Positions 16,304 to 53,390 of a stretch of 64,000 nucleotides of DNA are shown piece after piece. Source of the DNA: Actinomyces sp. oral taxon 414 (GTDB lineage: Bacteria; Actinomycetota; Actinomycetes; Actinomycetales; Actinomycetaceae); the NCBI RefSeq assembly GCF_001278845.1, contig NZ_CP012590.1, positions 248,001 to 312,000 on the forward strand, given 5' to 3'. A model generated the notes under the pieces. That model searched no databases and was not told the DNA's origin. It saw only the letters and a list, made by a program, of their open reading frames with translations. The translations under genes and the position numbers were made by a program. The number at the start of each line of letters is the position of its first letter. Positions within the stretch are counted from its first letter, which is position 1.

Positions 16304-16423
16304 TGTCAAAATCTGCCACAAAAGCGCCCCGGGCCGGGATCGGCTGGGAGGAGAAGCGCGGAATATCAACGATTCTCTTCCGGCGTTCCGGCTCGATCCT
16401 GGCCTTTGTGGCAGATTTGGACA
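16304..16423 (+). repeat. 120-bp palindromic element, copy A
   Basis: Bounded by TGTCAAAATCTGCCACAAA and TTTGTGGCAGATTTGGACA. The centre carries GCGGAATATCAACG, invariant or nearly so in all five copies of the window. About 45 bp left of it (GGTGGTGCTGGTGGGGCTCC...) are also shared with other copies, so the mobile or conserved unit may be ~165 bp. Confidence 0.92.
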
Positions 16424-16550
16424 TCCTGCGCCGCCACGGGGTCCGGGAGGGGCGCCAAGGGCCGGACGGCGACCACGACGGGCGCTCCGGCGAGCCAACA
16501 GGGTCCGCGGGCCGCGGCGCCGGACTCCTCGGGCGTCGCCCGGCGCCGAG

Positions 16551-16661
16551 ACGTGCACTTCGCATTCGAGAGTGCAGTTCCAACCGTCGTTCTCGAGAGC
16601 AAAATGCACCTTTCGACGAGGAGGGGATCGGTCGCGGCCGCTGCGGACTGCGGCGACAACC
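16551..16661 (+). repeat. GTGCACTTCGCA repeat, copy 1
   Basis: About 110 bp nearly identical to 40157-40267. It starts ACGTGCACTTCGCA, contains GTGCAGTTCCAACCGTC and GAGAGCAAAATGCACCT, and ends GACTGCGGCGAC. GTGCA and TGCAC blocks inside allow partial hairpin formation. Confidence 0.85.
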
Positions 16662-16739
16662 GCCCCGAAACATCTCCAGTGATCTGACGAGAAAAGCTCA
16701 TTGATTGATGACTGATGATCCAAATCAACGGCGTTTCAT

Positions 16740-17765
16740 CTAGTACTCGCTGCGGTCGTTGGGGTCGTAGCCCTGTCGGGGTTCATAGGGCCGTGGTTCC
16801 GGTCGGGCGCCGCCCTGCTGTCCATTGGGGTCGTAGCCGCTTCTCTGAGGTATCGAGAATTGCTGAGTCGACACGTGTCGTTGCGGGTCGTAGCCGTCCG
16901 TCTGGGGTGGCGCGTAGGTCGACGGCGCGGAATACTGCTGAGTAGCCCGGGGAGGCTGTCCCGGGTAATCCGGTCGAATCGGATGCTGCGGCATGGGGGA
17001 TTGTCCGAATTGGGGCGCCCCGGGATGGGCGCCCTGAATGGCGAGCTGTTTCTTGGAGTTGTTCATGACAACGGTGACTACAGTGGCGGTGATGGCCACG
17101 ATGGCGACGGCCCCGAGGACGATCCACAAGGGCAGGAGCGAGGACCCGCCGTCCTGATCCCCGTTCTGCGCCTGGCTCTGATTCTGGCCATTGCCGGATG
17201 TCCGAGTCGGGCTGGGAGTGCTGGTGGGAGCGTCGGTGTCCCTGCCCTCGGCGCGGACGGAGTCGAGGGATGTGACATTGGACCAGGTGACGGTATTTCC
17301 TTTCACCTCCGCATTGGTGTCGGCGTCGATGACCTCACCGGGGAAGATCATGGTTACGGTCGTGTTCTTGCTGTCCTTGAAGTCTTTGAAATCGCTTATC
17401 TTCGCGGTGTAGGTGCCCCCCTTGTGTTCGATGCTCATCGCCCCACCTTCTACGTCATCGATATCGGCACCGTACAAGCCCAGGGTGCAGGTGTCGCCGT
17501 CCGCCTTGACCTCGAATGAATCATTGTTGTCCAAGAGGGCCTCGGTGCAGTACAACGATGCGGGTGTACCCTCGACCTTCATGGATACGGTGAGGTCGGA
17601 GGTCTCATTATCGTAGATAACGAGTTTGATATCGACAGTCATCGAGGGGCTGGGGTCCGAGTCGGCTGCGAACGCGACGGAGGGAAGCCCTGCGCCCCCG
17701 AGAAGGACGAGGGCAATCAGAGCCACCAGCGCGCCAAGGCAGCGCAGGAGGGATGTGGTGTTCAC
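16740..17765 (-). CDS. LppM-like envelope protein, paralogue 3
   Basis: 341 aa. Signal peptide with cleavage near VAFAADS, an extracellular domain with two Cys, the IFPGEVIDADTNAEVKGNTVTWSN signature of the LppM-like domain, a Thr/Ser/Gln-rich stalk, a membrane helix (LWIVLGAVAIVAITATVV) and a cytoplasmic tail with repeated GYDPN/GYDPQ motifs. I chose the GTG at 17765, because TAGACT lies 7 nt upstream and the signal peptide then has a normal N-region; a TTG six codons earlier is the alternative. Expression is probably leaderless. Confidence 0.83.
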   Translation of the reverse strand: MNTTSLLRCLGALVALIALVLLGGAGLPSVAFAADSDPSPSMTVDIKLVIYDNETSDLTVSMKVEGTPASLYCTEALLDNNDSFEVKADGDTCTLGLYGADIDDVEGGAMSIEHKGGTYTAKISDFKDFKDSKNTTVTMIFPGEVIDADTNAEVKGNTVTWSNVTSLDSVRAEGRDTDAPTSTPSPTRTSGNGQNQSQAQNGDQDGGSSLLPLWIVLGAVAIVAITATVVTVVMNNSKKQLAIQGAHPGAPQFGQSPMPQHPIRPDYPGQPPRATQQYSAPSTYAPPQTDGYDPQRHVSTQQFSIPQRSGYDPNGQQGGARPEPRPYEPRQGYDPNDRSEY

Positions 17766-17784
17766 GCTTGCGAGTCTATACAAC

Positions 17785-17874
17785 GGCCCGACTCCGCGGG
17801 TGCGGGATCCTGCCGGGACGCGTCAGCGCCCGGGTCCATGGTGCTGGCCCGACTCCGCGGGTGCGGGATCCTGC
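17785..17874. repeat. 29-bp direct repeat upstream of LppM paralogue 3
   Basis: A 29-bp sequence beginning GGCCCGACTCCGCGGGTGCG occurs exactly at 17785-17813 and 17846-17874 (61-bp spacing). It lies just upstream of the paralogue 3 promoter and could be a paired regulator site or a duplication scar. Confidence 0.85.
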
Positions 17875-18269
17875 TTGCTGGTCGGCGAGAGACGACGCGC
17901 GCCGTCACCCGAAGGTTCTCCGTGGAGGTGGTCGTCGGCACACCGCCGGCCGACGGCGTCCAGACGTCGGCCGGGAGGTACCCGAGCCGTGTGAGCGGAC
18001 CGCCGAGGCCGCCCCGTGCTCTATCGCGGGCCGCGGATCGGCGGTGCGCCGCTCAGGACGGGAGACGCTTATCAGATGGACGATGGTCCATCGGAGTGGA
18101 CGATATAACCGTCGTCGATCGAGAGGAGGATGCCCCGGGAGTCGTAGCACTCCGCCGTAGCACTCCGCCTCGATGTGAAGGACTCAGCGAGCTTTTCTCA
18201 CCTGGAAGGTTATTCTGGGGCGTCCGAGTGGGACTGGTGGGGCTCCTGGGGCGACCCGGGGCGGGGGCG

Positions 18270-18389
18270 TGTCCAAATCTGCCACAAAGGCGCTCCGGGC
18301 CGGGATAGGTCGCGGAGGAAACCGCGGAATATCAATGATTCTTCTTGCGCGCCCCGACTCGATTGGGGCCTTTGTGGCAGATTTGGACA
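18270..18389 (+). repeat. 120-bp palindromic element, copy B
   Basis: Arms TGTCCAAATCTGCCACAAAG and CTTTGTGGCAGATTTGGACA are perfect inverted repeats. The core has GCGGAATATCAATGATTCTT. It has the same orientation and left flank (GGTGGGGCTCCTGGGGCG) as copies A and D. Confidence 0.95.
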
Positions 18390-18495
18390 CGGACCGGGTC
18401 CGGACCGGGTCCGACTGGTCCCACGCGACCCGCGCGCCCCATCTGTCTCAGGTTCCGCTTCTCGCCGCCCCTCCCGGGGCCGAACATGGCGCCCC

Positions 18496-18599
18496 GGGAG
18501 GATCGTTCCGGGGCGCACCCGACTGCGAGGCCGTCAGAACCGCGCAATCATGCGGAAACCGACGGACACACCCGGGGCGGGGGCCCGAACGATCCTCCC
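18496..18599 (+). repeat. GGGAGGATCGTTC palindromic element, copy 1
   Basis: Ends GGGAGGATCGTTC (18496-18508) and GAACGATCCTCCC (18587-18599) are perfect inverted repeats. Interior motifs GCACCCGACTGCGA and AATCATGCGGAA recur in the copy at 61978-62085. Confidence 0.88.
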
Positions 18600-18846
18600 A
18601 GGGCGCCAGAATCGGGTCCGGGCCCCGGGCCCCGCTCGCCCCCGACCCCGCCGCGGAGCGCCCGTGCAACAGATTCGGACACACCCCGCCCCACAAGCCC
18701 CATACACCCCACTCAGACACACCCAGAATAACCTTCCCGAAGGTTGAAAGTTATTCTGGGGTCGTCCGAGTGGGGCGGGCGGTCGCCCGCCTCGGTGAGG
18801 TCCATGATGTCGACACCGGCGCGGACACCCGCGCAGACGTCCCGGT

Positions 18847-18941
18847 CCGCGAGATCGCCACTTAACCCACGAGAACGTACCTCTAGCAGACGTTCTCGAG
18901 GGTTACCCGGCGATCTCGGCGGTTAAGTGGCGATCTCGCGG
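18847..18941. repeat. Nested hairpin (CGCGAGATCGCC family), copy 1
   Basis: Outer 21-bp perfect arms (18847-18867 with 18921-18941, starting CCGCGAGATCGCCACTTAAC) enclose an inner 9-bp stem CGAGAACGT/ACGTTCTCG around a CTCTAG-containing loop. Extra half-sites GGTTACCCGGCGATCTCG lie at 18901 and 18941. Related to 26041-26139. Confidence 0.88.
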
Positions 18942-19144
18942 GTTACCCGGCGATCTCGCGGACCGCGATGCCGATCCCCGGGCGCCCCGCACCACCGCCC
19001 GCTGAATAATCTTCGTTATTCGGGGGTGCAGGTGATGCGGGGTCATCAGGGGCGCGGGGGCGGCTGTGATGGTCTCCGCTCCCGTCGTCCCCTGGATCGT
19101 TCGCGCCGTGGACCACGGCGGCCCCGCCGCGCCGCCCCCGGCCC

Positions 19145-19209
19145 GTGAGCACGGGGGTTGACCCATGAGAACGAGGGTCTAGCACCCGTGCTCACGGGTC
19201 AACCCCCGT
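19145..19209. repeat. Hairpin with two alternative pairings
   Basis: GTGAGCACGGG (19145-19155) can pair with CCCGTGCTCAC (19185-19195), and ACGGGGGTTGACCC (19151-19164) with GGGTCAACCCCCGT (19196-19209). The loop motif GAGAACG...TCTAG resembles the loops of the CGCGAGATCGCC family, though stem sequences differ. Confidence 0.8.
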
Positions 19210-19437
19210 TGTCATTGGGCCCTTCTCGCCCGAAGGCGGTGACCGGGGGTGGGATCGGCATAATGGCGCGCAAGGGGCGGCACCCTCGCGGGCCCCGTGG
19301 GACCGGCGGACCCGGCGCCCGCCCCGACGACACCGCCGGACCCGCAGGAGTACCGGTCCGGGAAAGATCCCGTACACCTGGACCGCCCCCGGGGCCTCAC
19401 GCACCCCGCCGGGTCCGCCGGGACGCCCCCGATTCTC

Positions 19438-19510
19438 CGCGAACGCGTAGGTTTCCAGTCGAACGCGCAGGCGGGAGGTGCGCGTTCGACTGGAAACCTA
19501 CGCGTTCGCG
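19438..19510. repeat. 73-bp perfect hairpin (TAGGTTTCCAGTCGAACG family), copy 1
   Basis: Two perfect 32-nt arms (19438-19469 and 19479-19510) and a 9-nt loop. The arm contains GCGTAGGTTTCCAGTCGAAC. A second copy is at 39941-40013. Such a perfect stem is far stronger than needed for a terminator and is not followed by a U-tract. Confidence 0.95.
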
Positions 19511-19660
19511 AGGGAGAAGCCGGCCGGGGCGGCCATGGCGGTCAGGGCCGCGAGAAACCTGCGCGCTTGCAAGGGAGAAGCGGGAAAGCGCCCGCCGCCC
19601 CGGCCCGTGGACACGGACCGGGGCGGCGCAGAGGATGTGGAGGAGCGGATCCGTCAGTTG

Positions 19661-20575
19661 TCAGTACTGCCCGTTGGGGTTGTAACCCTGCTGCGGATTC
19701 TGACCCGGCTGGCCGGGGTACTGCTGCTGAGGGGGGTAAACCGGCTGCGCGCCCTGCTGGGGGTAGCCCGGCTGCTGGGCGGGGTACTGCTGGGGGCTGT
19801 AGGGCTGCTGGCCGGGCTGGGGGGCGTAGCCCATGGGCTGGCCCGGGTAGCCGCCGGGCGCGGTCTGCTTCTTCTTGCCGGATCTCACGACGAGGACGAT
19901 GACCACGATGATGACCAGTACGACCACCGCGCCCACGATGATCCACAGCCACGGCACACCTGCGACGCTCCCGCTGAGGACTCCCCCGCTGTCCTTGCCG
20001 ACGGCGTGGAGGGACCCCTTCTCATCCAGAACGTTGGCCCAGGTGACGGTATTGCCGTTCTTCTCGGCGTTGCCCGAGGCCTCGGTCACCTCGCCGGGGA
20101 AGGTGATCGAGATGCTGACCTCCATGTCGCCGTAGAGCTGGGTCATCTGCTGGCGCTGCGAGTCGTCCATCTCGCTCAACGGCATGGTGACGTCGTAGTG
20201 GCCGTTCTCGTGGGTGATCTTGAGCGATCCCGAGGAGCCGCTCGAACTGCTCTTGCCGTTGAACTGCGAGAGCGGGATGTTGGTCGCCTTGATCTCGCAG
20301 GCGGGGTGCCCGTCGTGCTGGGTGAAGTTGTACTTGACCTCGACGCCCTCGGGGACGTCGCTGGCCGGGTTGACCCCGGACCTGGACAGGCCGTCCTCGG
20401 AGCAGTCACTCTCGGTCATCTGGTCCTTGGAGTCCCACATGAGGATGGACTGGTCAACGGTGTCGCCGTGGATCGTCAGATCGTATTTCGTGCCGCAGGC
20501 GCCCAACAGCATGATCACCGGGATGACCATGAGGGCGCCGATACGGCGCAAGGAGGAACGGGAGGGCATACTCAT
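19661..20575 (-). CDS. LppM-like lipoprotein, paralogue 4
   Basis: 304-aa lipoprotein: lipobox LLGAC with Cys27 as the predicted lipidation site. The extracellular domain ends in ITFPGEVTEASGNAEKNGNTVTWAN, a clear LppM-type signature, and contains two further Cys. A strong membrane helix (LWIIVGAVVVLVIIVVIVLVV) and KKK precede a cytoplasmic Pro/Gln/Tyr/Gly-rich tail (QPGYPQQ, PGQNPQQGYNPN). Of the five paralogues this one and paralogue 5 have the lipobox and are closest to LppM in layout. TAGACT sits 6 nt before the ATG, so translation is probably leaderless; a second ATG two codons in is less likely. Confidence 0.88.
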   Translation of the reverse strand: MSMPSRSSLRRIGALMVIPVIMLLGACGTKYDLTIHGDTVDQSILMWDSKDQMTESDCSEDGLSRSGVNPASDVPEGVEVKYNFTQHDGHPACEIKATNIPLSQFNGKSSSSGSSGSLKITHENGHYDVTMPLSEMDDSQRQQMTQLYGDMEVSISITFPGEVTEASGNAEKNGNTVTWANVLDEKGSLHAVGKDSGGVLSGSVAGVPWLWIIVGAVVVLVIIVVIVLVVRSGKKKQTAPGGYPGQPMGYAPQPGQQPYSPQQYPAQQPGYPQQGAQPVYPPQQQYPGQPGQNPQQGYNPNGQY

Positions 20576-20773
20576 ATCGGAAGTCTACGAAAGAGCCCGC
20601 GCCAATCCAAGCCGGCAGTCGCTGCGGCAATGGGGAATACTCCCCGTCCGGCCAGGCGCCCGGGCCCTTCGCGGCGCATCCAGGCGCCGGGTCCGTCGCG
20701 GCAGCGCCGGGGAAGAAGACGACGCCGGGGCGATCGCGGCCGGGGCGAGCCGTCCGATCCGCGCCGAGGACCC

Positions 20774-21703
20774 CTACCGGTTCCGTCGGCTCCGCCCCTT
20801 CCCCTTCGGGCCGGACCGGCCCTTCGAACGGGATGAGGCCACTGAGCCGGACGAACTCTTCGAACGGGGCGGGTTCCCCGAGCCGGACCGGCCCTTCGAC
20901 CCGGACGGGGCGCGGCGACGGCGCCGGGCCGCGACGCCGATCCCCATGCCAATGCCGGCGGCGACCACGCCGCCGATAATCCACGCCGAGAAGCGGTCCC
21001 AGGCGCTCAGGCCCGCGTTGCTCGTCGCGTAGCCGGTGGCGCGCACCCCGGCCGCCAGGACGTCGGGGTCGGTCCAGGTAACGCTCGAACCGCTGGCCCG
21101 GCCCCCGCCGGCGTCGACGACCGCCCCGGGGAAGGAGACCGTCACGCGCGCGTCGACGACGCCGTTCAGCGAGCCCGTCGCCCCGGACCCCGCGCCGGCG
21201 TCTCCGGCACCCGCGCCGTCCGCCCCATTCCCGGCGGAATCGGCACCTGCGCCGTCCTCCCCGCCGGCGGCCCCGGGCACCCCGCCACCCGTCAGCCCGG
21301 CGGCCAGGGAGGTGAGATCGACGACGTACAGGTCGCCATCGCGCACCACGAGGCCGGCGTCCTGCGGGGTCTGCGAGGCCCCGGGCACCGCGACCCCGGT
21401 GATCCGCACCTCGCAGCCCACTCCGGCGTCGTCGCCGACCGATCCGACGACCTTCGAACTCACCCGCGCGCCCCGGAACTCGCCCACGAGCGCGGGATCG
21501 GCGTAGGCGGAGCAGTCCGTGTCGGCGGTGAACACCGTCCCGGTGGTGTCGCGCATCTCCATGACGACGTCGTAGGTGTCCGCCGGGGAGATGGTCATGT
21601 CCATGTGGGCGGTGCAGCCGGTGGTCAGCGCCGCGGCCGCGGCGCAGGCGGCGGCGACGGCGAGACGGCGCCGGACGGAGGGGGCGGAGAGCGGGGCGGT
21701 CAT
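20774..21703 (-). CDS. LppM-like lipoprotein, paralogue 5 (Ser/Arg/Lys-rich tail)
   Basis: 309 aa. Lipobox LTTGC with Cys30, extracellular domain with Cys residues and the VSFPGAVVDAGGGRASGSSVTWTD signature, a Gly/Ala-rich insert (about residues 150-180), one membrane helix (AWIIGGVVAAGIGMGIGVAA) and a basic tail of Ser, Arg, Lys and Gly in place of the PGQ tail of the others. The family membership is clear, but the tail chemistry has been replaced. TAGCGT lies 6 nt before the ATG (leaderless). It is the most upstream member of the five-gene series. Confidence 0.85.
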   Translation of the reverse strand: MTAPLSAPSVRRRLAVAAACAAAAALTTGCTAHMDMTISPADTYDVVMEMRDTTGTVFTADTDCSAYADPALVGEFRGARVSSKVVGSVGDDAGVGCEVRITGVAVPGASQTPQDAGLVVRDGDLYVVDLTSLAAGLTGGGVPGAAGGEDGAGADSAGNGADGAGAGDAGAGSGATGSLNGVVDARVTVSFPGAVVDAGGGRASGSSVTWTDPDVLAAGVRATGYATSNAGLSAWDRFSAWIIGGVVAAGIGMGIGVAARRRRRAPSGSKGRSGSGNPPRSKSSSGSVASSRSKGRSGPKGKGRSRRNR

Positions 21704-21922
21704 CCCCCGACGCTAGCCCACAACCCTTCACTCCTGGCGGAACCGTCCGCCGTCGGCCCCCTGAACCGCCCGGAATCGGCGTCAGACGGCGGGGATCGCG
21801 CCGCGGCGGGGGACCTCCGGGAACCCGCTGGGACCTAAGGGGGATGTGCCCCCGGAGCCGTTGTGAGAGAGGATGGCCCCGACCGCAAGAGCCAGCAAGA
21901 TTCCAAGGAAGGGACTCTACAT

Positions 21923-23770
<1,848 letters not shown>

Positions 23771-23854
23771 TCGGGGGTCTGCTCTCCTGAGCACTGATTC
23801 CTCAGGGGCTTCGGGGTCTGCTCTCCTGCAACTCCGACTCCTCAGGGACTCGAC

Positions 23855-23886
23855 GGGGGTCCCGCCGGTTCGCCGGCGGGACCCCC
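23855..23886 (+). terminator. Strong hairpin downstream of pckG
   Basis: Perfect 14-bp stem GGGGGTCCCGCCGG / CCGGCGGGACCCCC with a TTCG tetraloop. No long T-tract follows (GCTTCTT), as is usual in GC-rich actinobacteria. It lies between the convergent pckG and alcohol dehydrogenase genes and could serve both. Confidence 0.85.
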
Positions 23887-24008
23887 GCTTCTTCGCATTC
23901 TCGGCCGCCGGCCCCCGCACCGCGCGCAGCGGCGGGGCCGACGGCGCCGCGGCTTCACCGGCCGCTCGTCGCCTCCCCCCGCCACAGTGCGGGGCCGACG
24001 GCGCCGCA

Positions 24009-25070
24009 CTACTCCTCCAGCACCACGACCGGCTTAATGAGGTCGGGCCGCTTCTCGCGCATGCAGAGCAGCGCCGGCTCGACCTCCTCCCAGCCGTGGT
24101 AGATGTGCGTGGCCAGCGGGTGCACGTCCAGGCGCCCGGACGCCACCAGCGCGCCCAGCTTCTCCATGCGCAGGCGGCCGCCGGGCATCAGCCCGCCGTT
24201 GATCTGCTTGTGGCCCATGCCCACGCCCCACTCGACGCGCGGGATGCGCACGTAATCACCGGAGCCGAGGTAGTTCACGCAGCCGATCCTGCCGCCGGGC
24301 TTCACCGCCTTGACGGCCTCGATGAAGGTGTCGTTATTGCCGCCTGCGATCACCACCCTGTCCACGCCCTTGCCGTCGGTGAGCGCCAGCACCTGGTCGG
24401 CGATGGGGCCCTCCTTGTAGGAGATGAAGTCGGTGGCGCCGTAGCCCCTGGCGACCTCGATGCACTTGGGACGCGTGCCCACCGCCAGAATGCGCGACGC
24501 GCCGCGCAGGTTCGCGCCGGCCACGCTCATGAGGCCGACGGGGCCGATGCCCACGACCAGGACGACGTCGCCGAATTCCACGTCCGCCAGCTCCACGCCG
24601 TGGAAGCCAGTCGGCACCATGTCGGAGAGCATGCAGGCGTCCACCACGGACATGCCCTCGGGCAGGTGCGCGAGGTTGCCGTCGGCGTCGTTGACGTGGA
24701 ACACCTCGCCGAATACGCCGTCCTTGAAGTTGGAGAACTTCCAGCCGGCCAGCATGCCGCCGGAGTGCATGGAGTAGCCGGCCTGGGCCTCCAGGGAGCT
24801 CCAGTCCGGGGTGATGGCGGGCACCAGCACCCGGTCGCCCGGTTTGAAGTCCTTGACGAGCTCGCCGACTTCGACGACCTCGCCGCAGGCCTCGTGCCCG
24901 AGGATCATATTGTGCCTGTCGCCGATGGCGCCCTCCCACAGGGTGTGGATGTCGGAGGTGCAGATGGCGATGGCCAGCGGTTTGACTATCGCGTCCAGCG
25001 GCCCGCACTTGGGTCGTTCCTTGTCGATCCATCCGGACTCGCCGATACGGAGCATTGCGTAGCCCCTCAT
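24009..25070 (-). CDS. adh: NADP-dependent secondary alcohol dehydrogenase (T. brockii/C. beijerinckii type)
   Basis: 353-aa zinc-dependent medium-chain dehydrogenase very similar to the Thermoanaerobacter/Clostridium secondary ADHs. The catalytic zinc ligands fall at the family positions Cys37, His59 and Asp150, and the NADP-specificity residues at Gly198, Thr199 (Ser in the clostridial enzymes), Arg200 and Tyr218. The Rossmann motif is GIGPVGL. It probably interconverts ketones or aldehydes with alcohols at NADP(H) expense. AAAGGA about 6 nt before the ATG supports the start. The high similarity to Firmicute enzymes suggests ancient transfer, though codon use fits the host. Confidence 0.95.
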   Translation of the reverse strand: MRGYAMLRIGESGWIDKERPKCGPLDAIVKPLAIAICTSDIHTLWEGAIGDRHNMILGHEACGEVVEVGELVKDFKPGDRVLVPAITPDWSSLEAQAGYSMHSGGMLAGWKFSNFKDGVFGEVFHVNDADGNLAHLPEGMSVVDACMLSDMVPTGFHGVELADVEFGDVVLVVGIGPVGLMSVAGANLRGASRILAVGTRPKCIEVARGYGATDFISYKEGPIADQVLALTDGKGVDRVVIAGGNNDTFIEAVKAVKPGGRIGCVNYLGSGDYVRIPRVEWGVGMGHKQINGGLMPGGRLRMEKLGALVASGRLDVHPLATHIYHGWEEVEPALLCMREKRPDLIKPVVVLEE

Positions 25071-26258: not shown

Positions 26259-26381
26259 TGTCCAAATTTTTTGCCACAAAGTCCCGGACCCCGCCGGGGC
26301 GCCGGAAGAGAGACGTTGATATTCCGCGCTTCTTCTCGCCGCCGATCCCGGCCCGGAGCGACTCTGTGGCAGATTTGGACA
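26259..26381 (-). repeat. 120-bp palindromic element, copy C
   Basis: Inverted relative to copies A, B and D (core reads CGTTGATATTCCGCGC on the plus strand). Its left arm carries three extra T residues (AAATTTTTTGCCACAAA), making it 123 bp. The conserved 45-bp flank (here GCCCCCGCCCCGG...CCCCAGGAACTTC) lies on its right, as expected for the opposite orientation. Confidence 0.92.
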
Positions 26382-26844: not shown

Positions 26845-27222
26845 TCAGCCGTTGGGCCCCTCGACGAAGGAGACTCCGTGCTCCTCGGTAGCGCAGAGCA
26901 ATCGCTTGTCGCGTGTCCACAGACGGGCGCCAGGGACCAGCATGACGGAGCCGAGCAGGTGCGCATCGACTGGGCTGAGCCCTCGGCCCCACAGTGCATG
27001 GACCGCGACCAGAGCCAGTAGCTCGTCATGTGAGAGGACCGGGAACTGGTGGAGGTGCGCCAAGTGCTTGAGGACGTCATCTCTGGCTTTGAGTGACCCC
27101 ATCGCCAGCTCCTCCGCCACGAGTGGATGGGCCCCGATCTCGTCCTCGTGCAGCAGGTTGACGAGTACTGGGTCCGAGCGGTGGAAATGATCGATCCATA
27201 CCGAGGTGTCGACAAGGATCAC
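26845..27222 (-). CDS. vapC: VapC-type PIN-domain toxin
   Basis: 125-aa PIN-domain ribonuclease. The acidic metal-binding residues appear as ILVDTSVWIDH (Asp5), the central Glu in VAEELAMGS, and the Asp residues of SPVDAHLLGS and LWTRDKRL. Such toxins cleave tRNA or rRNA when freed from their antitoxin. The GTG start overlaps the stop of the upstream antitoxin gene by 4 bp (GTGA), the usual VapBC arrangement. Complete and apparently intact. Confidence 0.93.
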   Translation of the reverse strand: MILVDTSVWIDHFHRSDPVLVNLLHEDEIGAHPLVAEELAMGSLKARDDVLKHLAHLHQFPVLSHDELLALVAVHALWGRGLSPVDAHLLGSVMLVPGARLWTRDKRLLCATEEHGVSFVEGPNG

Positions 27223-39603: not shown

Positions 39604-39723
39604 TGTCCAAATCTGCCACAAAGGCGCTCCGGGCCGGTGTCGGCTATGAGCGGAGGCGCGGAATATCAACGTTTCTTCTCGTGCGCTCCGGCTTGGTCGG
39701 GGTCTTTGTGGCAGATTTGGACA
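39604..39723 (+). repeat. 120-bp palindromic element, copy D
   Basis: Arms TGTCCAAATCTGCCACAAAG and TTTGTGGCAGATTTGGACA; core GCGGAATATCAACGTTTCTT. Same orientation and left flank (GGTGGTGCTGGTGGGGTTCC) as copies A and B. Confidence 0.95.
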
Positions 39724-44260: not shown

Positions 44261-44331
44261 TTCCGCAGAGTAACCGGCCGGTGCGCGCGGGACGCGGGTC
44301 GTTTGGCCCGCTGGCGCTCGCAGATCACGGG

Positions 44332-45006: not shown

Positions 45007-45012
45007 GTCTTT

Positions 45013-45046: not shown

Positions 45047-46151
45047 GAATGTATCGCAAAACGATGGTTCCCGCTCCGAGCCGGACGCGCCCCAGGACAC
45101 CATGACTGATCCCTCCTCGCCCGCCGACTCCTCCTCGCCCAAGCCCCCCGCGCCCAGGGCGGCCTCCCGCTGGCGCAGATGGGGGCGTCGGGTCAGGCGG
45201 GTACTCGTCGTCGTCCTGGTGGTCGTCGGCGTCTGGAGCATCGGGAGCGCCGTGTTCGGTCCGCCCGGGGTCGGCCACTTCCGCTCGGCCGCAGGAAGAG
45301 CCGCGTACGTCGAGGCCTACGACCAGGCCATGGCGCTGCTCCCGGAACCCACCGCCCAGTACGACATCCACACCGACTTCGGGGTCGTGCGGGCCTATGA
45401 GTGGAGCACGGATAAGACCGCCCAGACGACGCCGGTCGTGCTTCTGCCCGGCCGTTCCTCCGGGGTGCCCATGTGGTCGGTCAACCTCGCTGGCTTCGCG
45501 GCCGGCCACCGGGTCATCGCCTTCGATGCGCTCGGCGACGCCGGCATGTCGGTCCAGTCCTCCCCGCTGACCTCCATGGCGGATCAGGCCGAGTGGATCG
45601 ACCAGGTGCTCCGGGTCCTGGCCCCCGACGGCGTCCACCTCGTCGGTCACTCCTTCGGCGGGGCGACCGCCACCGCCTACGCCCGCTTCCACCCCGAACG
45701 CGTCCGCTCGCTCGCGCTGCTCGAACCGGTCTTCACCTTCGGCCACCCTCCGACACGGTTCATGGCCTGGGCGATGGTCGCCTCCCTGCCGCTGATCCCG
45801 GAGGGTATGCGGGAGCACGCCCTGGGCAAGATCGGCGGGGCTGACGGCGAAGCCGAGAGCCAGGACCCGATGGCGGTGATGATCAGGACTGGCACCCGGC
45901 ACTACTCGGCGGATCTGCCCACCCCATCGCTCTTGTCGGAGGATGAGGCCTTGACGATGACGATGCCGGTCTACGTCGCCATCGCCGAGCACGAATCCCT
46001 GGCGGGCGGTGAGCGGGCCGCCCAGCGAGCGCGCGAGCTCCTTCCCCGGGCAACGGTCAAGATCTGGCCGGACACCACCCACTCCCTGCCCATGCAGGAG
46101 CCCGAGGCCCTGGGGAACGAGCTCGAGGGATTCTGGAGCGCAGCCGGGTAG
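45045..46151 (+). CDS. Membrane-anchored alpha/beta hydrolase
   Basis: 368 aa. A disordered Pro/Ser-rich N-terminus and a basic stretch (RWRRWGRRVRRV) precede one membrane helix (about residues 52-68); the rest should lie outside the membrane. Catalytic motifs: LLPGRSSGVPMW near the oxyanion hole, nucleophile elbow GHSFGGA, an Asp after the strand LALLEPVF and the final His in DTTHSLPMQEP. Related to haloalkane-dehalogenase/epoxide-hydrolase-like alpha/beta hydrolases; substrate unknown. The leaderless-type -10 TATTTT lies 6 nt before the ATG. Confidence 0.87.
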   Translation: MNVSQNDGSRSEPDAPQDTMTDPSSPADSSSPKPPAPRAASRWRRWGRRVRRVLVVVLVVVGVWSIGSAVFGPPGVGHFRSAAGRAAYVEAYDQAMALLPEPTAQYDIHTDFGVVRAYEWSTDKTAQTTPVVLLPGRSSGVPMWSVNLAGFAAGHRVIAFDALGDAGMSVQSSPLTSMADQAEWIDQVLRVLAPDGVHLVGHSFGGATATAYARFHPERVRSLALLEPVFTFGHPPTRFMAWAMVASLPLIPEGMREHALGKIGGADGEAESQDPMAVMIRTGTRHYSADLPTPSLLSEDEALTMTMPVYVAIAEHESLAGGERAAQRARELLPRATVKIWPDTTHSLPMQEPEALGNELEGFWSAAG

Positions 46152-46292
46152 AGGGCCGAGCCAATGCGCCTGATGGGGCCTTGTGGCTCCGCCGTCGCCC
46201 CGCCGGCCGGCCCGACCGGTGTGAGCAGAACCTCCCGGCCGGAGCGGGCCGCGATCAGCCCGCGCTCAGACTCCGATGCCACCATGCCCGGC

Positions 46293-48641
46293 ATGTCTGC
46301 TATCACCGCACTCGATGAGACCACCTGGGCCGACGCCGACTGGCCGCTCGGCACCCACCTGCGGGCCGACGGCACCACCTTCGCCGTCTACGCCCCCGCC
46401 GCCACCCGCGTCCAGCTGGAGATCTACCCCGAGGCGCTCGGCGCCACCGCCTCGGCCGTCTTCCTGCCCGCCCGCGGCGCCGACGGCATATGGCGCGCCC
46501 GACTGGGCGGCCTGGAGCCCGGAGCCCTCGTCGGCTTCCGCGTCTGGGGCCCCAACTGGCCCTACGACGAGGCCTGGACCCCCGGCTCCGACGCCGGCTT
46601 CATCGCCGACTTCGACGAGCAGGGCAACCGATTCAACCCCAACAAGGTCCTCTTCGACCCCTACTCCCGTGAGATCACCCACAACGTCTACACCGACGCC
46701 CTGGGCCGCCTCGGCGTCAACGACGGGGTCCTGGGCACCGGCGGCGAGCTCGTCGACGGCGTGCCGCGCCGTCGGATCGACACCGCCCCCTACGCCCCCA
46801 AGGGCATCGTCATCGCCGAGAGCGCCGCGCCCGCCGACAAGCCGCAGCTGCCGCCCGAGCAGGCCATCATCTACGAGGCCGGCGTCACCCAGCTCACCGG
46901 CCACCCCTCCGCGGCCCGCCTGGCCGACCTGCTGGCCGGCGAGCCCGGCTTCGAGGGCGTGACCGACATCCCCGCCCAGTACCAGGGCACCTACAAGGGC
47001 GCGGGCCTCCTGGCCCCCTACCTCAAGGCCGCCGGCGTCACCACCGTCGAGCTCCTGCCCGTCCACGAGACCAACGCCTCCGAGACCGGACGGGCCGGCG
47101 CCACCAACGCCTGGGGCTACATGACCCTGTCGTTCTTCGCCCCCAACCGCCGGTACGCGGCCGACAAGAGCCGGGGCGGACCCACCCGCGAATTCAAGGA
47201 GATGATCCGCGCCTTCCACGACGCCGGCCTGGAGGTATACCTCGACGTCGTCTACAACCACACCGCCGAGGGCGGCAACTGGAACGGCGACGTGAACACC
47301 ACCGGCTTCACGTCCCTGGGCGGCTTCGCCACCGCCGAGTACTACCAGATGACGCGCGACAAGATCCTCGTCGACGGCGCCACGGGGACCTCCAACCAGA
47401 TCAACTACTCCTCCGCGGCGGCCCGCCAACTGGTGCTGGACTCGCTGCACTACTGGAGCCACGACATGGGGGTCGACGGCTTCCGCTTCGACCTGGCCAC
47501 CGTGCTGGGCCGCAGCCCCCACGACGCCGAGCCCGACGACTGGGGCGCCCAGAAGCGCTTCTTCAACGAGCACCCGCTGCTCACGGGCATCGCCGCCCTG
47601 GCCGAGAAGGAGAACCTCGAGGTCATCGCCGAGGCCTGGGACCTGTGGGGCTACGAGGTGGGCAACTTCCCCCGCGGCTGGGGCGAGTGGAACGGCCGCT
47701 ACCGCGACGCCGTCCGCCGCTTCACCAAGGGCGACGGCAACACCGCCGACTTCCTCGACATGATCAACGGCGACTACCACCACTTCGAGGACAACGGCGG
47801 CCCCCAGAAGTCGATCAACTTCATTGTCGCCCACGACGGCTTCAACCTGGCCGACCTCGTCAGCTACCAGACGAAGGACAACAACCAGCCCTACCCCTTC
47901 GGCCCCTCCGACGGCGGCAGCGACGACAATATGTCGTGGGACTCCGGGGGCGACCCGGGACTGCGGCGCCAGCGGCTGCGCAACCTGTGGACGATCCTCA
48001 TGCTCTCGCGCGGCGTGCCCATGGTGGTGGCCGGCGACGAGTTCGGCCGCACCCAGAACGGCAACAACAACCCGTGGGCGCTGGACTCGTTGGCCATGCG
48101 CAACAACTACGCCATGATCGCCACCAACGCCCCCCAGCGGGTCGCCGTCGAGGACGGCACGGGCGCCGCCTACCACGACAACCTGGGCGTGTTCGACAGC
48201 CGCGACGAGCGGGTGAACCCGCTGTTCCGCTTCGCCACCTTCCTCATGCGGCTGCGCCACCGCCACCCCGCGCTGCACCAGGCCGCCTGGGGCGACCTGG
48301 AGGCCGGCGGCGAGGACGTCTCCTACCTGTTCCGCACGCCCGACGGCGACGGCTCCCCCCGCGAGGGCGACCGGGCGCTCGCGGTGCACATCGATGCGCC
48401 CGACGACGGCTTCTGGGTCATGATCAATATGAGCCCGGCCCCGGTCGACTTCCGGGTGCCCGCGGCCGGCGGGGGCGACGTGTGGCGGCGCCTGGTCGAC
48501 ACCGCCGTGGGGTCGGAGAAGGACGACAACTGCTGGCCCGAGGGCGAGGGCGAGATCGTCGCCGACGGCGTCGCGGTGCAGCCGTGGTCGGTCGTCGTGT
48601 GGCACAGGAGCCCGAGCCCGCGGCCCGGCGCCGCGCGCTGA
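46293..48641 (+). CDS. glgX: Glycogen debranching enzyme (GlgX/isoamylase type, GH13)
   Basis: 782-aa enzyme cleaving alpha-1,6 branches of glycogen. An N-terminal CBM48-like domain (WPLGTHLRADGTTFAVYAPAATRVQLEIY) is followed by the TIM barrel with DVVYNHTAEG, the nucleophile Asp in DGFRFDLATVLG, the acid/base Glu in VIAEAWD and the third Asp in IVAHDGFNLAD. The length is in the upper range because of an insert around residues 120-200. An ATG three codons earlier (46284) is equally possible. A 42-bp tandem duplication spans the stop codon (CGCCGCGCGCTGA at 48629 and 48671). Confidence 0.95.
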   Translation: MSAITALDETTWADADWPLGTHLRADGTTFAVYAPAATRVQLEIYPEALGATASAVFLPARGADGIWRARLGGLEPGALVGFRVWGPNWPYDEAWTPGSDAGFIADFDEQGNRFNPNKVLFDPYSREITHNVYTDALGRLGVNDGVLGTGGELVDGVPRRRIDTAPYAPKGIVIAESAAPADKPQLPPEQAIIYEAGVTQLTGHPSAARLADLLAGEPGFEGVTDIPAQYQGTYKGAGLLAPYLKAAGVTTVELLPVHETNASETGRAGATNAWGYMTLSFFAPNRRYAADKSRGGPTREFKEMIRAFHDAGLEVYLDVVYNHTAEGGNWNGDVNTTGFTSLGGFATAEYYQMTRDKILVDGATGTSNQINYSSAAARQLVLDSLHYWSHDMGVDGFRFDLATVLGRSPHDAEPDDWGAQKRFFNEHPLLTGIAALAEKENLEVIAEAWDLWGYEVGNFPRGWGEWNGRYRDAVRRFTKGDGNTADFLDMINGDYHHFEDNGGPQKSINFIVAHDGFNLADLVSYQTKDNNQPYPFGPSDGGSDDNMSWDSGGDPGLRRQRLRNLWTILMLSRGVPMVVAGDEFGRTQNGNNNPWALDSLAMRNNYAMIATNAPQRVAVEDGTGAAYHDNLGVFDSRDERVNPLFRFATFLMRLRHRHPALHQAAWGDLEAGGEDVSYLFRTPDGDGSPREGDRALAVHIDAPDDGFWVMINMSPAPVDFRVPAAGGGDVWRRLVDTAVGSEKDDNCWPEGEGEIVADGVAVQPWSVVVWHRSPSPRPGAAR

Positions 48642-48901
48642 GCGGCGGTAGCGCCGGCACCTGAGTCCCGCGCCGCGCGCTGAACGCCGGTAGTGCCGGC
48701 AGTGCCGGGCTCCTTCTCCGCTTCCGCGGCGAGGGGGCCCGGCACCCGCGTTCGAATGGGAATCGAATGATGGGGCCGCCCCGCGGGGCTTCCGATTGAT
48801 GGCTCTTCGCATTTGAGGGTGTAGTAGGCGGGGCCTGCGCGACGGGACGCGGCAGGGGCGGGGACGCGGCCGAGGGGCTGTAGAAACGGTGTGAGGGAAG
48901 G

Positions 48902-49455
48902 ATGCGCAGGATGATGCGGCGGACGGGACTCGTATCGAGGCGCGGGGCGGTGGTCATGCTCGCGGTCGCGCTCGCGGCAGCGGCCTGCTGATAGCCGACG
49001 ACAGGGGCGCCCCCTCGGCCCTGTGGGAGTACCCCAACGGCCACTACGCCGCCGTGCGCCCCAGCGTCCCGGCCGCCGCCAGCACCGCGCAGGACCGCAG
49101 CGCCGCCACAGACGACGCCATCGCCATTCTCACCCGGATCGCCCCCCAGCTGCCCGCCACCGCCGCCCTGCCCGAGATCCTCGAATCCTCCTACCCCCTC
49201 GAAACGGATCGGCACGCGACCACCACGACGCCCAACCCCCGGCGCACACCCGCCATCCTCACCGCGGCACTGGCACTGACCTGCGCCGCGGCCTACCGAC
49301 TCGCACTCGCCCGCCCCCGGACCAAGGCCCGAACCCGTCCCCGCTGGATAACCTTACTCCTTCCGGGCGCGAATACGGACGTCTCGTCGCCAGGGCGGAA
49401 TACCGTCATCACCGACGACACGATGTTCGCGCTCATTGACGGCGGCCGCCGGTGA
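48902..49455 (+). pseudogene. Frameshifted lipoprotein-like gene
   Basis: ATG 48902, preceded by GAGGGAAGG, opens a basic N-region and hydrophobic core ending in a lipobox (VALAAAAC). Immediately after the Cys codon come two stops (TGATAG). A different frame from about 48991 continues without a stop to 49455: IADDRGAPSALWEYPNGHYAAVRP ... AAATDDAIAILTRIAPQLPATAALPEILESSYPLE, then a second hydrophobic stretch (PAILTAALALTCAAAYRLALA). It reads as one small lipoprotein broken by a one-base loss (or two-base gain) at the Cys codon. Function unknown. Confidence 0.65.
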
Positions 49456-49481
49456 TGGCTCCGCTCCGGCCCGCGAACTTA

Positions 49482-50770
49482 TAGCGGGAATAAAACGAAA
49501 TCCGCGTCTGGTGCTTCGTTTTGAGTTCGGGGTCGTGGCGGTTGGTCGGGTGTGGTTCCGATTGGATTTCGGGTGTCGTTCTCCTGTATGATTGCGGTTA
49601 TGGAAGCGGTAGTGGTCGAGGAGCATGAGTGGTCGGCTCTTCAAGTGCACAAGGCGGAATCCCCGTATAAGCTGATGAGGCGCAAGTCGGAGGCGATTCT
49701 CATGCTGTCGGAGGGAATTGGCGTCGATGTCGTGGCGCGGCTGGTGGAGCGCGCCACCAGGACGGTCATGGAGTGGGCGAGGGATTGGAGGAGGGATCGG
49801 TTGTCGTCCATTTGCACCGGGCATGTCGGCAACAACAACGCCTCCAAGATCTCCCAGGAACAGGAGAAGGAGATCCTGAAGGCGCTGTCGCGCCCCCCGT
49901 CGGAGCAGGGCATTGCGGCGGAGTTCTGGAATATTCACGATCTGGCGGGCTGGATGCACGAGCGCTTCGGCATCGAGTACGCCTCCGAATCCTCCTACCG
50001 TTCTTTGCTCCACATGGCGGGGTTGTCCTTCCACCTGCCCGAGGAGGTGGACCAGCGCCGCGCCGACGAGACCCAGGTCGAGGCCCGCATGGCGAAGATC
50101 CACGCCAAGATCGCCAAGATCAAGGGGAAGAAGCAGGACGGGCAGGACGGGCAGGAGGAGGACGAGGGGCAGCGGGGGAGTGAGAAGAATGAGTGCGAGA
50201 ACGAGAAGACGGACGATGCGGAGAAGGGAGATGCGGAGAAGGGGGATGAGGATGTCATCGTGGTGTCCGCGGACGAGGTGAGGATCGAGCACGAGGCCAT
50301 TACTCGCAGGGCCTGGTGCAAGAAGGGCGCCAGGACCAGGATCAGGGTCGATCGGAAACGGCAGTCCCAGAGCTATATCGGATTCCTCCACGAGGCGGAC
50401 GGGAGCGTGGACCTCATGCGACTGGACTGGCAGAACACCTCCAACATCGTGAAGGCCCTGACCGATCTTACCCTGAAGTACCCGGACAAGACGATCGTCG
50501 TGGTGTGGGACAACGCCGGATGGCACAAGTCGAAGAAACTGAGGGAGCACCTGGGGAAGGGCAACATCCTGGAGAGGATCCATCTCATCAACCTGCCGCC
50601 CTACAGCCCCAATAAGAACCCCATCGAACGCGTCTGGGGAGAAGGCAAGAAATCCATCAGCAACCGACAGCGCGCCCACTTCGAGGACACCCGCAACGCA
50701 TTCGAGACCTTCATCAGGAGCAACAAATTCCCATACCGCCTCACAAAATGACTTTGTAAAATCGCCGCTA
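49482..50770 (+). mobile_element. IS630-family insertion sequence, copy 2
   Basis: 1289 bp, same ends and length as copy 1 (13465-14753), TA duplications at 49480-49481 and 50771-50772. It interrupts the 3' end of a minus-strand membrane-protein gene. Sequence identity of the two copies indicates recent transposition or gene conversion. Confidence 0.95.
49588..50751 (+). CDS. IS630-family transposase, copy 2
   Basis: 387 aa, identical in translation to copy 1, with the same DDE motifs (VVSADEVRIE, VVWDNAGWHKS, LPPYSPNKNPIERVW) and the same Lys/Glu/Asp-rich linker. Both copies appear intact, so trans-mobilisation is possible. As in copy 1, the chosen ATG is 36 nt inside the longest open frame. 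Confidence 0.94.
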   Translation: MIAVMEAVVVEEHEWSALQVHKAESPYKLMRRKSEAILMLSEGIGVDVVARLVERATRTVMEWARDWRRDRLSSICTGHVGNNNASKISQEQEKEILKALSRPPSEQGIAAEFWNIHDLAGWMHERFGIEYASESSYRSLLHMAGLSFHLPEEVDQRRADETQVEARMAKIHAKIAKIKGKKQDGQDGQEEDEGQRGSEKNECENEKTDDAEKGDAEKGDEDVIVVSADEVRIEHEAITRRAWCKKGARTRIRVDRKRQSQSYIGFLHEADGSVDLMRLDWQNTSNIVKALTDLTLKYPDKTIVVVWDNAGWHKSKKLREHLGKGNILERIHLINLPPYSPNKNPIERVWGEGKKSISNRQRAHFEDTRNAFETFIRSNKFPYRLTK

Positions 50771-51344
50771 TATTGATGTGGGCGCACAGGAAGAGCGCCG
50801 CGAACAGATGGAGGCCGGCGAGCGCGTAGAACGGGTTGGTGTTTGTGGAACCGGCATCGAAGGCCGCCCCCGCGATGGTGGAGATGGTCCCGGCCACCGC
50901 CGCCATGGCGACGCCGAAGACGGCCACGCCGATATCCTCCCGTGAGCCCCACAGCATGAGGCACACGAACAGCCCGGCCATGGAGGTGAGCGCGCCCGTC
51001 GACAGGGCCGGCAGGCACAGGAAGTCGGAAAAGCCCGTGGGACGCTTCGAGATCTCGGACCAGTCCCCGGCGAGCAGATGGCCGGTGGAGATCAGGGCGC
51101 ACAGCCAGCAGATGGCGGCGCACGCCAGCCGGCCCACTGGGGCGCGACGCTCGACCGGAGCCGCGGCCGCGGACCCGTGCCCCAATTCTCGCGGGGCGCG
51201 TCCGGTGCGGGCGGAGGACTCGTCGGAAGAGCCGGTCGGGACCGCCGTTCGCGGGGTGGGGTCGCCGTCGGGGGCGCCGGGTGCACCGCCTTTACGGTTG
51301 TCAGGGGCATGGCCTTCGCGCTCGTCAGGGGCTTCGTCGCTCAT
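50601..51344 (-). pseudogene. Membrane protein with its C-terminus replaced by IS630 sequence
   Basis: From ATG 51344 a hydrophilic Pro/Ser-rich N-terminus leads to four or so hydrophobic segments (LACAAICWLCALISTGHLLAG; ALTSMAGLFVCLMLWG; GVAVFGVAMAAVAGTISTIAGAA; FYALAGLHLFAALFLCAH). At 50772 the frame runs into the IS and gains an alien ~58-residue tail. Removing the IS and one TA restores HINKFAGRSGAITGGRRQ followed by a stop near 49437, so the native protein was only about 14 residues longer than the break. All membrane segments survive; partial function is conceivable. GACCCT lies 6 nt before the ATG. Confidence 0.8.
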
Positions 51345-51371
51345 GAAGGTAGGGTCGCAGGCGGCGCGGCC

Positions 51372-52001
51372 TCAGTCCAGTAGCGCGAGCAGGTCCCTCA
51401 GGCTCGCGACGACCAGTGCGCCGGGGGCGTCGTCGGGCAGGGTGACCGAGGTGCCCGGGCGCACCAGCAGCGACGCGGCCATCCCGGCGGCGCGCGCGGC
51501 CATCACGTCGATGGGCCGGTCCCCCACGCACAGCACCTCGGCGGGGTCCAGCCCGTGGCGCTCGGCCAGGAGGAGGTTCATGGCGGGGCTCGGCTTGCGC
51601 GCGATCCCGTCGGGGGCGCAGACCATGTCGTCCACCGTGAGGTCCAGGGCCCGCAGCAGGTCCGTGGCGCTGGCCCGGTCGCGGTGGGTGGCCACGAGGT
51701 TGAGGCCGCCGAGTCCGCTCACCCGCGCCATCACCTCGCGGGCCCCGTCCATGACGGGGGCGGGGCGGCGGCGCCAGCGCTCCTTGAGCCCGGCGTAGGC
51801 CTCCTCGAAGACCCGCGGTGCGAGGTCGTGCTCGACGGCGAGGGTGGCGATGGCGTGGGCGATCGAATGGCGGGTCAGGGAGGTCACGTGCCTGACGTGC
51901 TCGGGCTCGGCGTCGGCGAAGGCCGCTTCGCACAGGACGCGGTCGACCTCGGGGTAGGTGTTGACGAGAGTGCCGCCCATGTCCCAGATGATGTGACGCA
52001 T
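51372..52001 (-). CDS. HAD-superfamily hydrolase
   Basis: 209 aa. Motif I is WDMGGTLVNTYP, in which the first Asp is retained and the usual second Asp (DxDGT) is replaced by Gly (DMGGT), as in some HAD phosphatase-like subgroups. Motif II VATHRD, motif III Lys in ARKPSP and motif IV VGDRPIDVMAARAAGM are present. The cap domain is the small helical type between motifs I and II. Substrate unknown. GACAAT lies 6 nt before the ATG, again leaderless. The 27-bp gap to the membrane-protein gene downstream on the same strand suggests they were co-transcribed. Confidence 0.88.
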   Translation of the reverse strand: MRHIIWDMGGTLVNTYPEVDRVLCEAAFADAEPEHVRHVTSLTRHSIAHAIATLAVEHDLAPRVFEEAYAGLKERWRRRPAPVMDGAREVMARVSGLGGLNLVATHRDRASATDLLRALDLTVDDMVCAPDGIARKPSPAMNLLLAERHGLDPAEVLCVGDRPIDVMAARAAGMAASLLVRPGTSVTLPDDAPGALVVASLRDLLALLD

Positions 52002-52120
52002 GGCTCCATTGTCGCTGGAAATCCTCCGCCTCACCGGCCGTTGGGCCCCTTGATCCGGCAGCCCTCCAGATCCTCGCCCGGCGTTGATCCTTGTCTCGAC
52101 GCCCCCGTACACTTCCCCGT

Positions 52121-52417
52121 GTGGAGGACCTGCGGATCGACGCCTCGCGCCTGGCCGAGTTGTGCCGGCGCTACGGCATCGCGCGCCTGGAGGTCTTCGG
52201 GTCTGTCGCCCGGGGGGAGCAGCGCCCGGACAGCGATGTGGACCTGCTGTACACGCTGGAGGGGGGGCGCGCGCTCGGCTGGGAGGTCGAGGACCTCGTC
52301 GAGTCTCTGACGGAGGTCTTCCACAGGCCCGTCGACCTGGTCTCGCGGCGCTCGCTCCATCCCATGATTCGCGACCGGGTCATGGCGGAGGCCGAGACGC
52401 TCTATGCGGCGGCCTGA
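52121..52417 (+). CDS. mntA: MntA-type nucleotidyltransferase antitoxin
   Basis: 98-aa minimal nucleotidyltransferase. The signature GS-X10-DXD is exact: GSVARGEQRPDSDVD. Members of this family neutralise HepT by adding AMP residues to a tyrosine next to the HEPN active site. The GTG start has TACACT 7 nt upstream and no ribosome-binding site. The gene overlaps the following HEPN gene by 14 bp, the usual arrangement. Confidence 0.92.
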   Translation: MEDLRIDASRLAELCRRYGIARLEVFGSVARGEQRPDSDVDLLYTLEGGRALGWEVEDLVESLTEVFHRPVDLVSRRSLHPMIRDRVMAEAETLYAAA

Positions 52418-52757
52418 GTACCTGTACCTCCATGAGATGCGCGACGCCGTCGTGCGGATCATCGACATCGTCGGAACGTCGAGTCGCGCCGAGATCGAGC
52501 AGGATCACAACAGGGCCGACGCCCTCATGTGGAACTACACGGTTCTCGGCGAGGCCGCCGCCGGACTGCCTCAGGAGTTCCGGGATCGGCATGCCGACAT
52601 CGCCTGGCGCCGTCCCATTGGTCTGCGTAACCGGATCGTTCACGGCTACTGGTCCGTTGACATGGAGATTCTGGTTGTGACCGCTGCGAACGACCTGCCC
52701 GATCTTCTGACGCGGTTGAACGGGATCATGTCGGCCCTGGACCCGGGGGGCCAGTGA
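52404..52757 (+). CDS. hepT: HepT-type HEPN ribonuclease toxin
   Basis: 117-aa HEPN protein. The Rx4HxY motif needed for RNase activity and for inactivation by AMPylation is intact: RNRIVHGY near residues 76-83. The N-terminal LYLHEMRDAVVRIIDIV helix fits the family. It overlaps the antitoxin gene by 14 bp. Together they form a complete MntA-HepT module lying next to an IS-damaged region, typical of accessory DNA. Confidence 0.92.
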   Translation: MRRPEYLYLHEMRDAVVRIIDIVGTSSRAEIEQDHNRADALMWNYTVLGEAAAGLPQEFRDRHADIAWRRPIGLRNRIVHGYWSVDMEILVVTAANDLPDLLTRLNGIMSALDPGGQ

Positions 52758-52763
52758 GGCTCA

Positions 52764-53115
52764 CCGGGAAGGTTATTCAGTGGGCTCATGGTGGCGCTCT
52801 CCTGTGCGGACCACTTGCGTTCCGCTGGACCACGGTGGTCCGACCGTCGTTCCCGGGGGCGGAGTGCGCGTCTCGGCGTCCGGGGCGCGTCACGACATGC
52901 GAGACGCCGTCCCGCCATGCGAGATGCGCTATCGGGGCGAAGCGGGGGCGGGGCGCCGGAACCGCCCCCGACGCCGCCCGGACCGCCCCCGACGACCGCA
53001 CCGGCCGATCCCGCCGCGCCCGACCCCACCGACGCGCCCGGAGGTGACCCGAGCAGACCGCCACCACGATCTTCACGCCCCACGTCTTCAAAACCACCCC
53101 TGAATAACCTTCCGG
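52764..53115. repeat. ~350-bp unit with GGAAGGTTATTCAG inverted ends (MITE-like)
   Basis: CCGGGAAGGTTATTCAG at 52764-52780 and CTGAATAACCTTCCGGG at 53100-53116 are inverted repeats (14 bp perfect). The interior includes a degenerate GGACCACTTGCG hairpin. The left end overlaps the region just after the hepT stop. No transposase inside. Confidence 0.6.
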
Positions 53116-53270
53116 GTTCCGGGGCGGCACAGCCCCTTCCCTTCTCGGGCCGCTTGCGGGAGTGTTGCACATTGGAGAGCGGCGCTCCCGTGGGCCCGCC
53201 CGGCCGATCGGGGCGCCCGCCGCGGCCGCCGCCCGGCCCGTGGGCCCCTCTCGGGGCCCGCGGTGACGTT

Positions 53271-53390
53271 TGTCCAAATCTGCCACAAAGGCCCCGATCG
53301 ACCCGGAGCGCCGGAAGAGAATCGTTGATATTCCGCGCTTCTTCTCGCCGTCGATTCCGCCGCGGGGCGCCTTTGTGGCAGATTTGGACA
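53271..53390 (-). repeat. 120-bp palindromic element, copy E
   Basis: Perfect arms TGTCCAAATCTGCCACAAAG / CTTTGTGGCAGATTTGGACA, core in the inverted orientation (CGTTGATATTCCGCGC). The conserved flank is on the right (CGTCCCCGCTCCGGGCCGTC). Confidence 0.95.

Follow-up and report, generated by a model that had tools for sequence, protein, structure and literature searches.

A REPIN-like palindromic repeat of fixed geometry in Actinomyces that may be read in trans as double-stranded DNA

A palindromic element in the window and the home genome

The 64,000-nucleotide stretch analyzed here (the window; G000:C1:248001-312000) belongs to the 3.84-Mb, single-contig genome of Actinomyces sp. oral taxon 414 (the home genome) and carries five copies of a short palindromic intergenic element, which we call E. 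This element consists of two inverted arms of ~20 bp (TGTCCAAATC-N6-AAAG) flanking a core, CCGCATGATTCC. Our preferred reading, to which we give a probability of about one half, is that E is a small REPIN-like repeat whose arms and core, at a fixed spacing, are read as double-stranded DNA by a factor acting in trans.

Three of the window copies lie on the plus strand, at 16304..16423 (copy 1, with a left arm of the TGTCAAAATC variant), 18270..18389 (copy 2), and 39604..39723 (copy 4); the other two lie on the minus strand, at 26259..26381 (copy 3) and 53271..53390 (copy 5). All are 120 bp long except copy 3, which reaches 123 bp through three extra bases in one arm. An earlier, sequence-only reading of this DNA had placed all five copies correctly, along with the 120-bp length of four of them and the three-to-two split in orientation, here judged by the asymmetric core, and the additional conservation that it described on one flank is real. 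Its view that the repeats are not random agrees with the nine matches to the arm word in the window at up to three mismatches, against 0.01 expected from 100 shuffles.

Across the home genome, the arm word occurs 92 times forward and 95 times in reverse (reversed control, 0), and the core word occurs 122 times at up to one mismatch (control, 0). We compiled 112 two-armed copies, a set without half copies or the 123-bp copy 3 of the window. Nearly all (110) are 120 bp long, one is 119 bp, and one is 118 bp, and their arms are of two types, TGCCAC (96 copies) and TGTTGC (16 copies). None of the 112 overlaps a gene called by a simple codon-usage gene caller, which bears out the earlier description of E as noncoding. 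By eye, E seems flipped relative to its conserved flank at G000:C1:2991466 (L145) and at several loci of G027 and G028.

Arms and core are held at a constant spacing

In other genomes, 70 copies of 120 bp show conservation of arms and core but not of spacers; ten bases at either end of these copies were set by the search pattern. Because this biases the ends, we also searched with a single arm in G460, a genome of the sister genus. All 46 plus arms had a partner among the 49 minus arms, at exactly 120 bp in 44 cases and at 118 and 121 bp in one case each, and three minus arms were unpaired. This scripted pairing applies to G460; the arms of G007, G028, G438, and G026 were listed at one mismatch.

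Divergence follows the same layout. In 79 ortholog-like pairs, picked by spacer similarity, the differences per site are 0.147 in the spacers, 0.042 in the core, 0.041 in AAAG, and 0.241 at arm positions 13-14. Across 34 ortholog-like pairs there are 0 gaps within E versus 160 gaps per 1036 substitutions in the flanks, a comparison in which the choice of pairs favors ungapped ones. The divergence rates, the single-arm search, and the gap comparison support the earlier proposal that length and core are under selection, and a constraint on duplex geometry is likely.

Distribution of E beyond the home genome

To survey the family, a strict pattern (TGTCCRAATC-N95..125-GATTYGGACA; reversed control, 0) was run on 213 genomes, and a genome "without E" here means one with no match to it. 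The pattern matched in 25 genomes, comprising 23 of 49 Actinomyces (home genome included) and both genomes of the sister genus, and in none of the 162 other genomes of the family. It undercounts, since G460 has 15 copies by the pattern versus 46 by arms, and G034 has zero yet gives BLAST matches to E. Named carriers among the 80 matches listed are A. oris, A. naeslundii, A. johnsonii, A. dentalis, A. gerencseriae, A. massiliensis, A. glycerinitolerans, and A. ruminis; oral taxa 448 and 170, strain ZJ308, and an Actinomycetaceae metagenome-assembled genome (MAG) also appear there. Copy number ranges from 1 to more than 100 per genome.

When 396 genomes of the order were searched with a 19-mer, seven matched; the matches in the three from outside Actinomyces are lone arms. 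The matches in G059, G071, and G403, as well as two viral loci, were set aside as lone arms, and plasmids and phages gave no match to E. Two further candidates, L354 and L376, were rejected on reading both loci; L376, from a Pseudomonadota MAG, holds at 2267-2383 an unrelated palindromic repeat with TGTCCAAATCTAGCCAT ends that the pattern had picked up.

This distribution bears on the possibility of a host site, in which E would be a multi-contact platform selected by the host for binding a chromosomal or regulatory protein. The constant spacing, the conserved core and arms, and the retention of copies at orthologous loci would all fit such a site, as would a T-flanked hairpin resembling a two-way terminator that stands at one of these loci (locus A) in the E-less G022. 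However, about half of the species are without E by the strict pattern, copy number varies from 1 to over 100, and the flanking gene pairs show no preference against the control, whether convergent (22/89 versus 26/157, p 0.13) or divergent (24/89 versus 41/157, p 0.88). A preference for gene ends had appeared in a smaller set, where 17 of 36 pairs were convergent, and was dropped as not significant against the larger control. We regard a host site as rather improbable.

Arm types are lineage-specific and copies are replaced in part

The two arms of one copy agree beyond the genome-level expectation (425 of 480 letters; shuffles, mean 386, highest 407) and far more than arms agree across genomes. 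Arm types are lineage-specific. The type is mostly GGAYAC in A. oris CCUG 34288, TGTTGC on both arms in 25 of the 28 A. dentalis copies at the loci shown, and CCGTCC in all 25 copies listed for the sister genus.

Comparison of 100 copies outside the home genome gave 113 pairs with at least one common flank, 65 of them with both. Both halves of E are retained in 44 of these 65 pairs and not in the remaining 21, which are not independent: locus A contributes seven through a single event, and another is no more than a one-base shift. In group J, the flanks and the left half are retained and the right half is replaced from core to arm, while groups B and L keep their flanks around a replaced interior; at locus A, the left flank has changed as well. 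The orthologous gene pair at locus A holds E in eight species and lacks it in at least two (G027 and G438). In a further ortholog of locus A without E (L303, from G022), the convergent gene pair carries a T-flanked hairpin that resembles a bidirectional intrinsic terminator. At locus O, two left flanks and two right flanks occur in all four combinations, and HigB-like toxin and helix-turn-helix antitoxin-like genes lie between two E copies (L255 = G006, L256 = G003).

Such rearrangements recall integrons. Integron attC sites are, like E, imperfect palindromes beside gene ends with exchange between copies; their R/L boxes differ from the ends of E. If E were a recombination site of the integron kind, with its copies separated by cassettes, the core-to-arm replacement in group J, the toxin-antitoxin genes and flank combinations of locus O, and a core that by eye looks like a recombinase core would be accounted for. 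The swaps, however, retain both flanks, so a single crossover cannot produce them. Locus N, considered as a gene presence/absence polymorphism, is not polymorphic, as G003 has the gene too, parted from E by an inserted gene like that of an insertion sequence (IS). No tyrosine-recombinase motif was found in 450 loci (1.94 Mb), in a scan run without a positive control and not genome-wide, and no integron integrase was found near E by motif in the fetched loci, again not genome-wide. Of the explanations considered, this one seems to us the most improbable.

A different account of the same data is that E is an ordinary miniature inverted-repeat transposable element (MITE), in which case the arms would represent the terminal inverted repeats of a DDE transposon that has escaped notice and the core would be a relic. 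Its TG...CA ends, inverted arms that match within a copy, variable copy number, and presence or absence at given sites are all as expected of a MITE. Lone arms are nevertheless uncommon in the genome where they were counted (G460, 3 of 95), and thus no longer element with E-arm ends is seen there; moreover, the core is conserved, copies within one genome have unrelated spacers outside IS5-carried sets, and no target duplication was seen by eye at the loci compared. We consider a MITE origin unlikely.

IS5-type carriers in the home genome

Carriage of E by IS5-type units in the home genome is near certain. Two unrelated IS5-type transposon ends are involved: 71 of the 112 compiled copies have one or the other next to them, none has both, and 41 have neither. 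The end GAAGGTTATTC stands ~120 bases before the core in 56 copies, and the end TGAGCCTTTCTC (up to two mismatches) stands ~168 bases before it in 15, nine of which have the matching right end; genome-wide, these ends occur 165 and 74 times, respectively. Both kinds are present in the window on the plus strand: the carrier of copy 1 (16190..16700, 511 bp) has inverted ends like TGAGCCTTTCTC and GAGAAAGGCTCA, with up to two mismatches each, and that of copy 2 (18205..18736, 532 bp) has the inverted ends GAAGGTTATTC and GAATAACCTTC.

An 880-bp unit with GAAGGTTATTC-type ends and a 974-bp unit with TGAGCCTTTCTC-type ends encode proteins that match DDE_Tnp_4 above its cut-off and NCBIfam IS5 models with scores below those models' cut-offs. 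Four 989-bp units, whose proteins were left out of the domain scan, also have TGAGCCTTTCTC-type ends, and units of ~180 bp with such carrier ends have no E inside. The distribution of the two ends and these E-less units indicate that the same E is held by two unrelated carriers. Three-base repeats are visible by eye at several carrier ends and absent at others. Like IS5-family MITEs, most home-genome carriers of E share inverted ends with DDE_Tnp_4-encoding units; unlike them, E has arms that differ from both kinds of carrier end, and it occurs without carriers in other species. The earlier suggestion of a nonautonomous mobile unit gains support from the 71 carried copies and from orthologous sites with or without E according to species. 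The copies are not segmental duplicates only, and E itself did not match a known IS end, although its outer carriers do match IS5-type ends.

Other features of the window lie close to these copies. A second palindromic repeat, E2 (16553..16609, plus strand; GTGCAC...GTGCAGTTCCAACCGTC...TGCAC), sits inside the carrier of copy 1 and is found downstream of E in TGAGCCTTTCTC-type carriers; it also occurs inside a 258-bp TGAG-ended unit without E (L209). Three adjacent LppM-domain genes surround copies 1 and 2 (15050-16021, 16740-17783, and 19661-20575 [minus]), and a PIN-domain gene (26845-27222, minus) adjoins copy 3. Two 399-amino-acid frames, at 13535-14734 and 49552-50751, have identical composition; the former, the only one scanned, matches an IS630 transposase model.

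Comparison with REPINs and other intergenic repeats

Intergenic palindromic repeats of ~100-160 bp confined to particular groups, as E is, include ERIC, Correia/NEMIS, and RUP, all of which seem to differ from E in sequence and geometry. No description of the E family was recognized among the papers that searches for such repeats or their sequences brought up, as judged from the openings of abstracts.

The closest likeness is to REPINs, which have inverted conserved ends at a constant distance, a variable spacer, and copies bracketing RAYT genes (PMC3116915, Bertels and Rainey 2011). With these, E shares the inverted conserved ends at a fixed distance, the variable spacer, the many intergenic copies, the strain-specific types, and a copy-flanked gene. 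It differs in its conserved core, its longer span (120 bp), spacers that show no hairpin outside the home genome, arms that, on direct reading of their consensus, carry neither a GTAG nor a CGTC tag, and a flanked gene that is endonuclease-like rather than a Y1 transposase. No RAYT (Y1 transposase) motif was found in the fetched loci, in a scan run without a positive control and not genome-wide.

An endonuclease-like gene lies between two copies of E

A gene for a DUF559/MTES_1575 endonuclease-like protein has an E copy on each side in ten genomes from two genera: G003, G006, G010, G025, G430, G001, G011, G338, G028, and, at 52% identity, G460 of the sister genus. In G007, the second bracketing E has one mismatch per arm, and in G438, one E copy was found. 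The bracketing copies share the same orientation at all nine loci checked. In A. oris and its kin, the gene encodes ~285-300 residues, and its 3' end runs into an E arm. Genes next to this arrangement in G028 look, by eye, unlike those in A. oris. An earlier, smaller set (L214-L251) had the gene in 3 of 38 loci, two being overlapping stretches of one locus; the link between E and the gene rests on the later ten-genome loci.

Among 29 relatives, 28 match MTES_1575 and 25 match DUF559, and Asp220, Glu230, Asp232, and His237 of the last domain (A. oris numbering) are kept in nearly all 29 when aligned. Some relatives' records are titled "endonuclease domain-containing protein," and the last domain has a weak sequence match in the PDB to 3hrl, "Endonuclease-Like Protein" (E 0.0094).

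On balance, the data favor recognition of E in trans. A protein so supplied would read the arms as duplex DNA, and exchange and spread outside IS5-type carriers would follow from its action. The candidate reader would be the winged-helix-turn-helix-like/DUF559-MTES_1575 endonuclease-like protein whose gene two E copies bracket in two genera. If it cut E and the break were repaired from a different copy, both the swaps and the arm types that copies share would be explained. In its fullest form, this would be a two-part selfish system that parallels REPIN and RAYT but relies on an endonuclease acting on duplex DNA. The protein would recognize arm hexamers and cut different E alleles, which repair from sister copies would then convert, with arm specificity co-evolving with the protein across species. 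We offer that scheme tentatively, as possible but doubtful, and the protein as a candidate partner only, with the odds clearly against it.

Folding, and the evidence that weighs against duplex recognition

The 20-sequence consensus pairs in its arms only, with 21 pairs, seven of which show changes on both sides; such changes are also expected if one factor reads both arms. The spacers of 85 copies from other genomes fold like shuffled sequences (mean z -0.22), arm position 5 in G460 combines near-randomly between arms (20 CC, 18 mixed, and 8 AA; expected 18.3, 21.4, and 6.3), and wobble-type arm differences outside the home genome are not in excess (32 versus 28, plus 28 transversions). Rfam gave no match at its gathering score for the window and four loci of relatives. 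Drifting spacers, constant length, and shuffle-like folding make duplex-DNA geometry a better reading than an RNA hairpin. The "selected structure" of the sequence-only reading thus holds for the arms, which pair in the consensus, and not for the spacers; as the trait under selection, a folded structure is at best weakly supported, with a slight excess of folding confined to the home genome and no match to a catalogued RNA family.

It is from the home genome that the case for a selected RNA or single-stranded hairpin (a small RNA, a terminator, or a classical REPIN) draws its strength beyond the consensus arm pairs. Six copies there fold along their length, 99 copies have a slight folding advantage over shuffles (mean z -0.56, 13% below -2), and arm differences are mostly of the wobble type (28 versus 5, plus 9 transversions), with G/A differences at positions 21 and 6, in related copies, making up 26 of the 28. 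Set against the folding, position 5, and wobble data from other genomes and the Rfam result, these leave such a hairpin very unlikely in our view, and they slightly lower the odds of duplex recognition.

Other points, besides the pair choice in the gap comparison, also count against duplex recognition in trans. Agreement between the arms of a copy is expected from base pairing as well, and G006 and G010 differ by one base within E at locus D. No target duplication was visible at E, and neither an autonomous E-bounded transposon nor catalysis came to light. As for the candidate protein, the Pfam match of the A. oris version falls under the curated cut-off (24 versus 38.2 bits), and the arrangement within the A. 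oris group is a single inherited locus. The gene was not found by tblastn within ~1.5 kb of the compiled copies of the E-rich home genome, nor in the fetched loci of the likewise E-rich A. dentalis, with no genome-wide search made in either.

Implications

If E is indeed read as duplex DNA in trans, long-lived REPIN-like populations would not be bound to single-stranded hairpins and tyrosine transposases, and in Actinobacteria a REPIN-like life style could be sustained by another class of enzyme. Arm types, being specific to lineages, would allow co-evolution of an enzyme with dispersed DNA sites to be tested directly. For oral Actinomyces, copies of E also mark sites of exchange and rearrangement.
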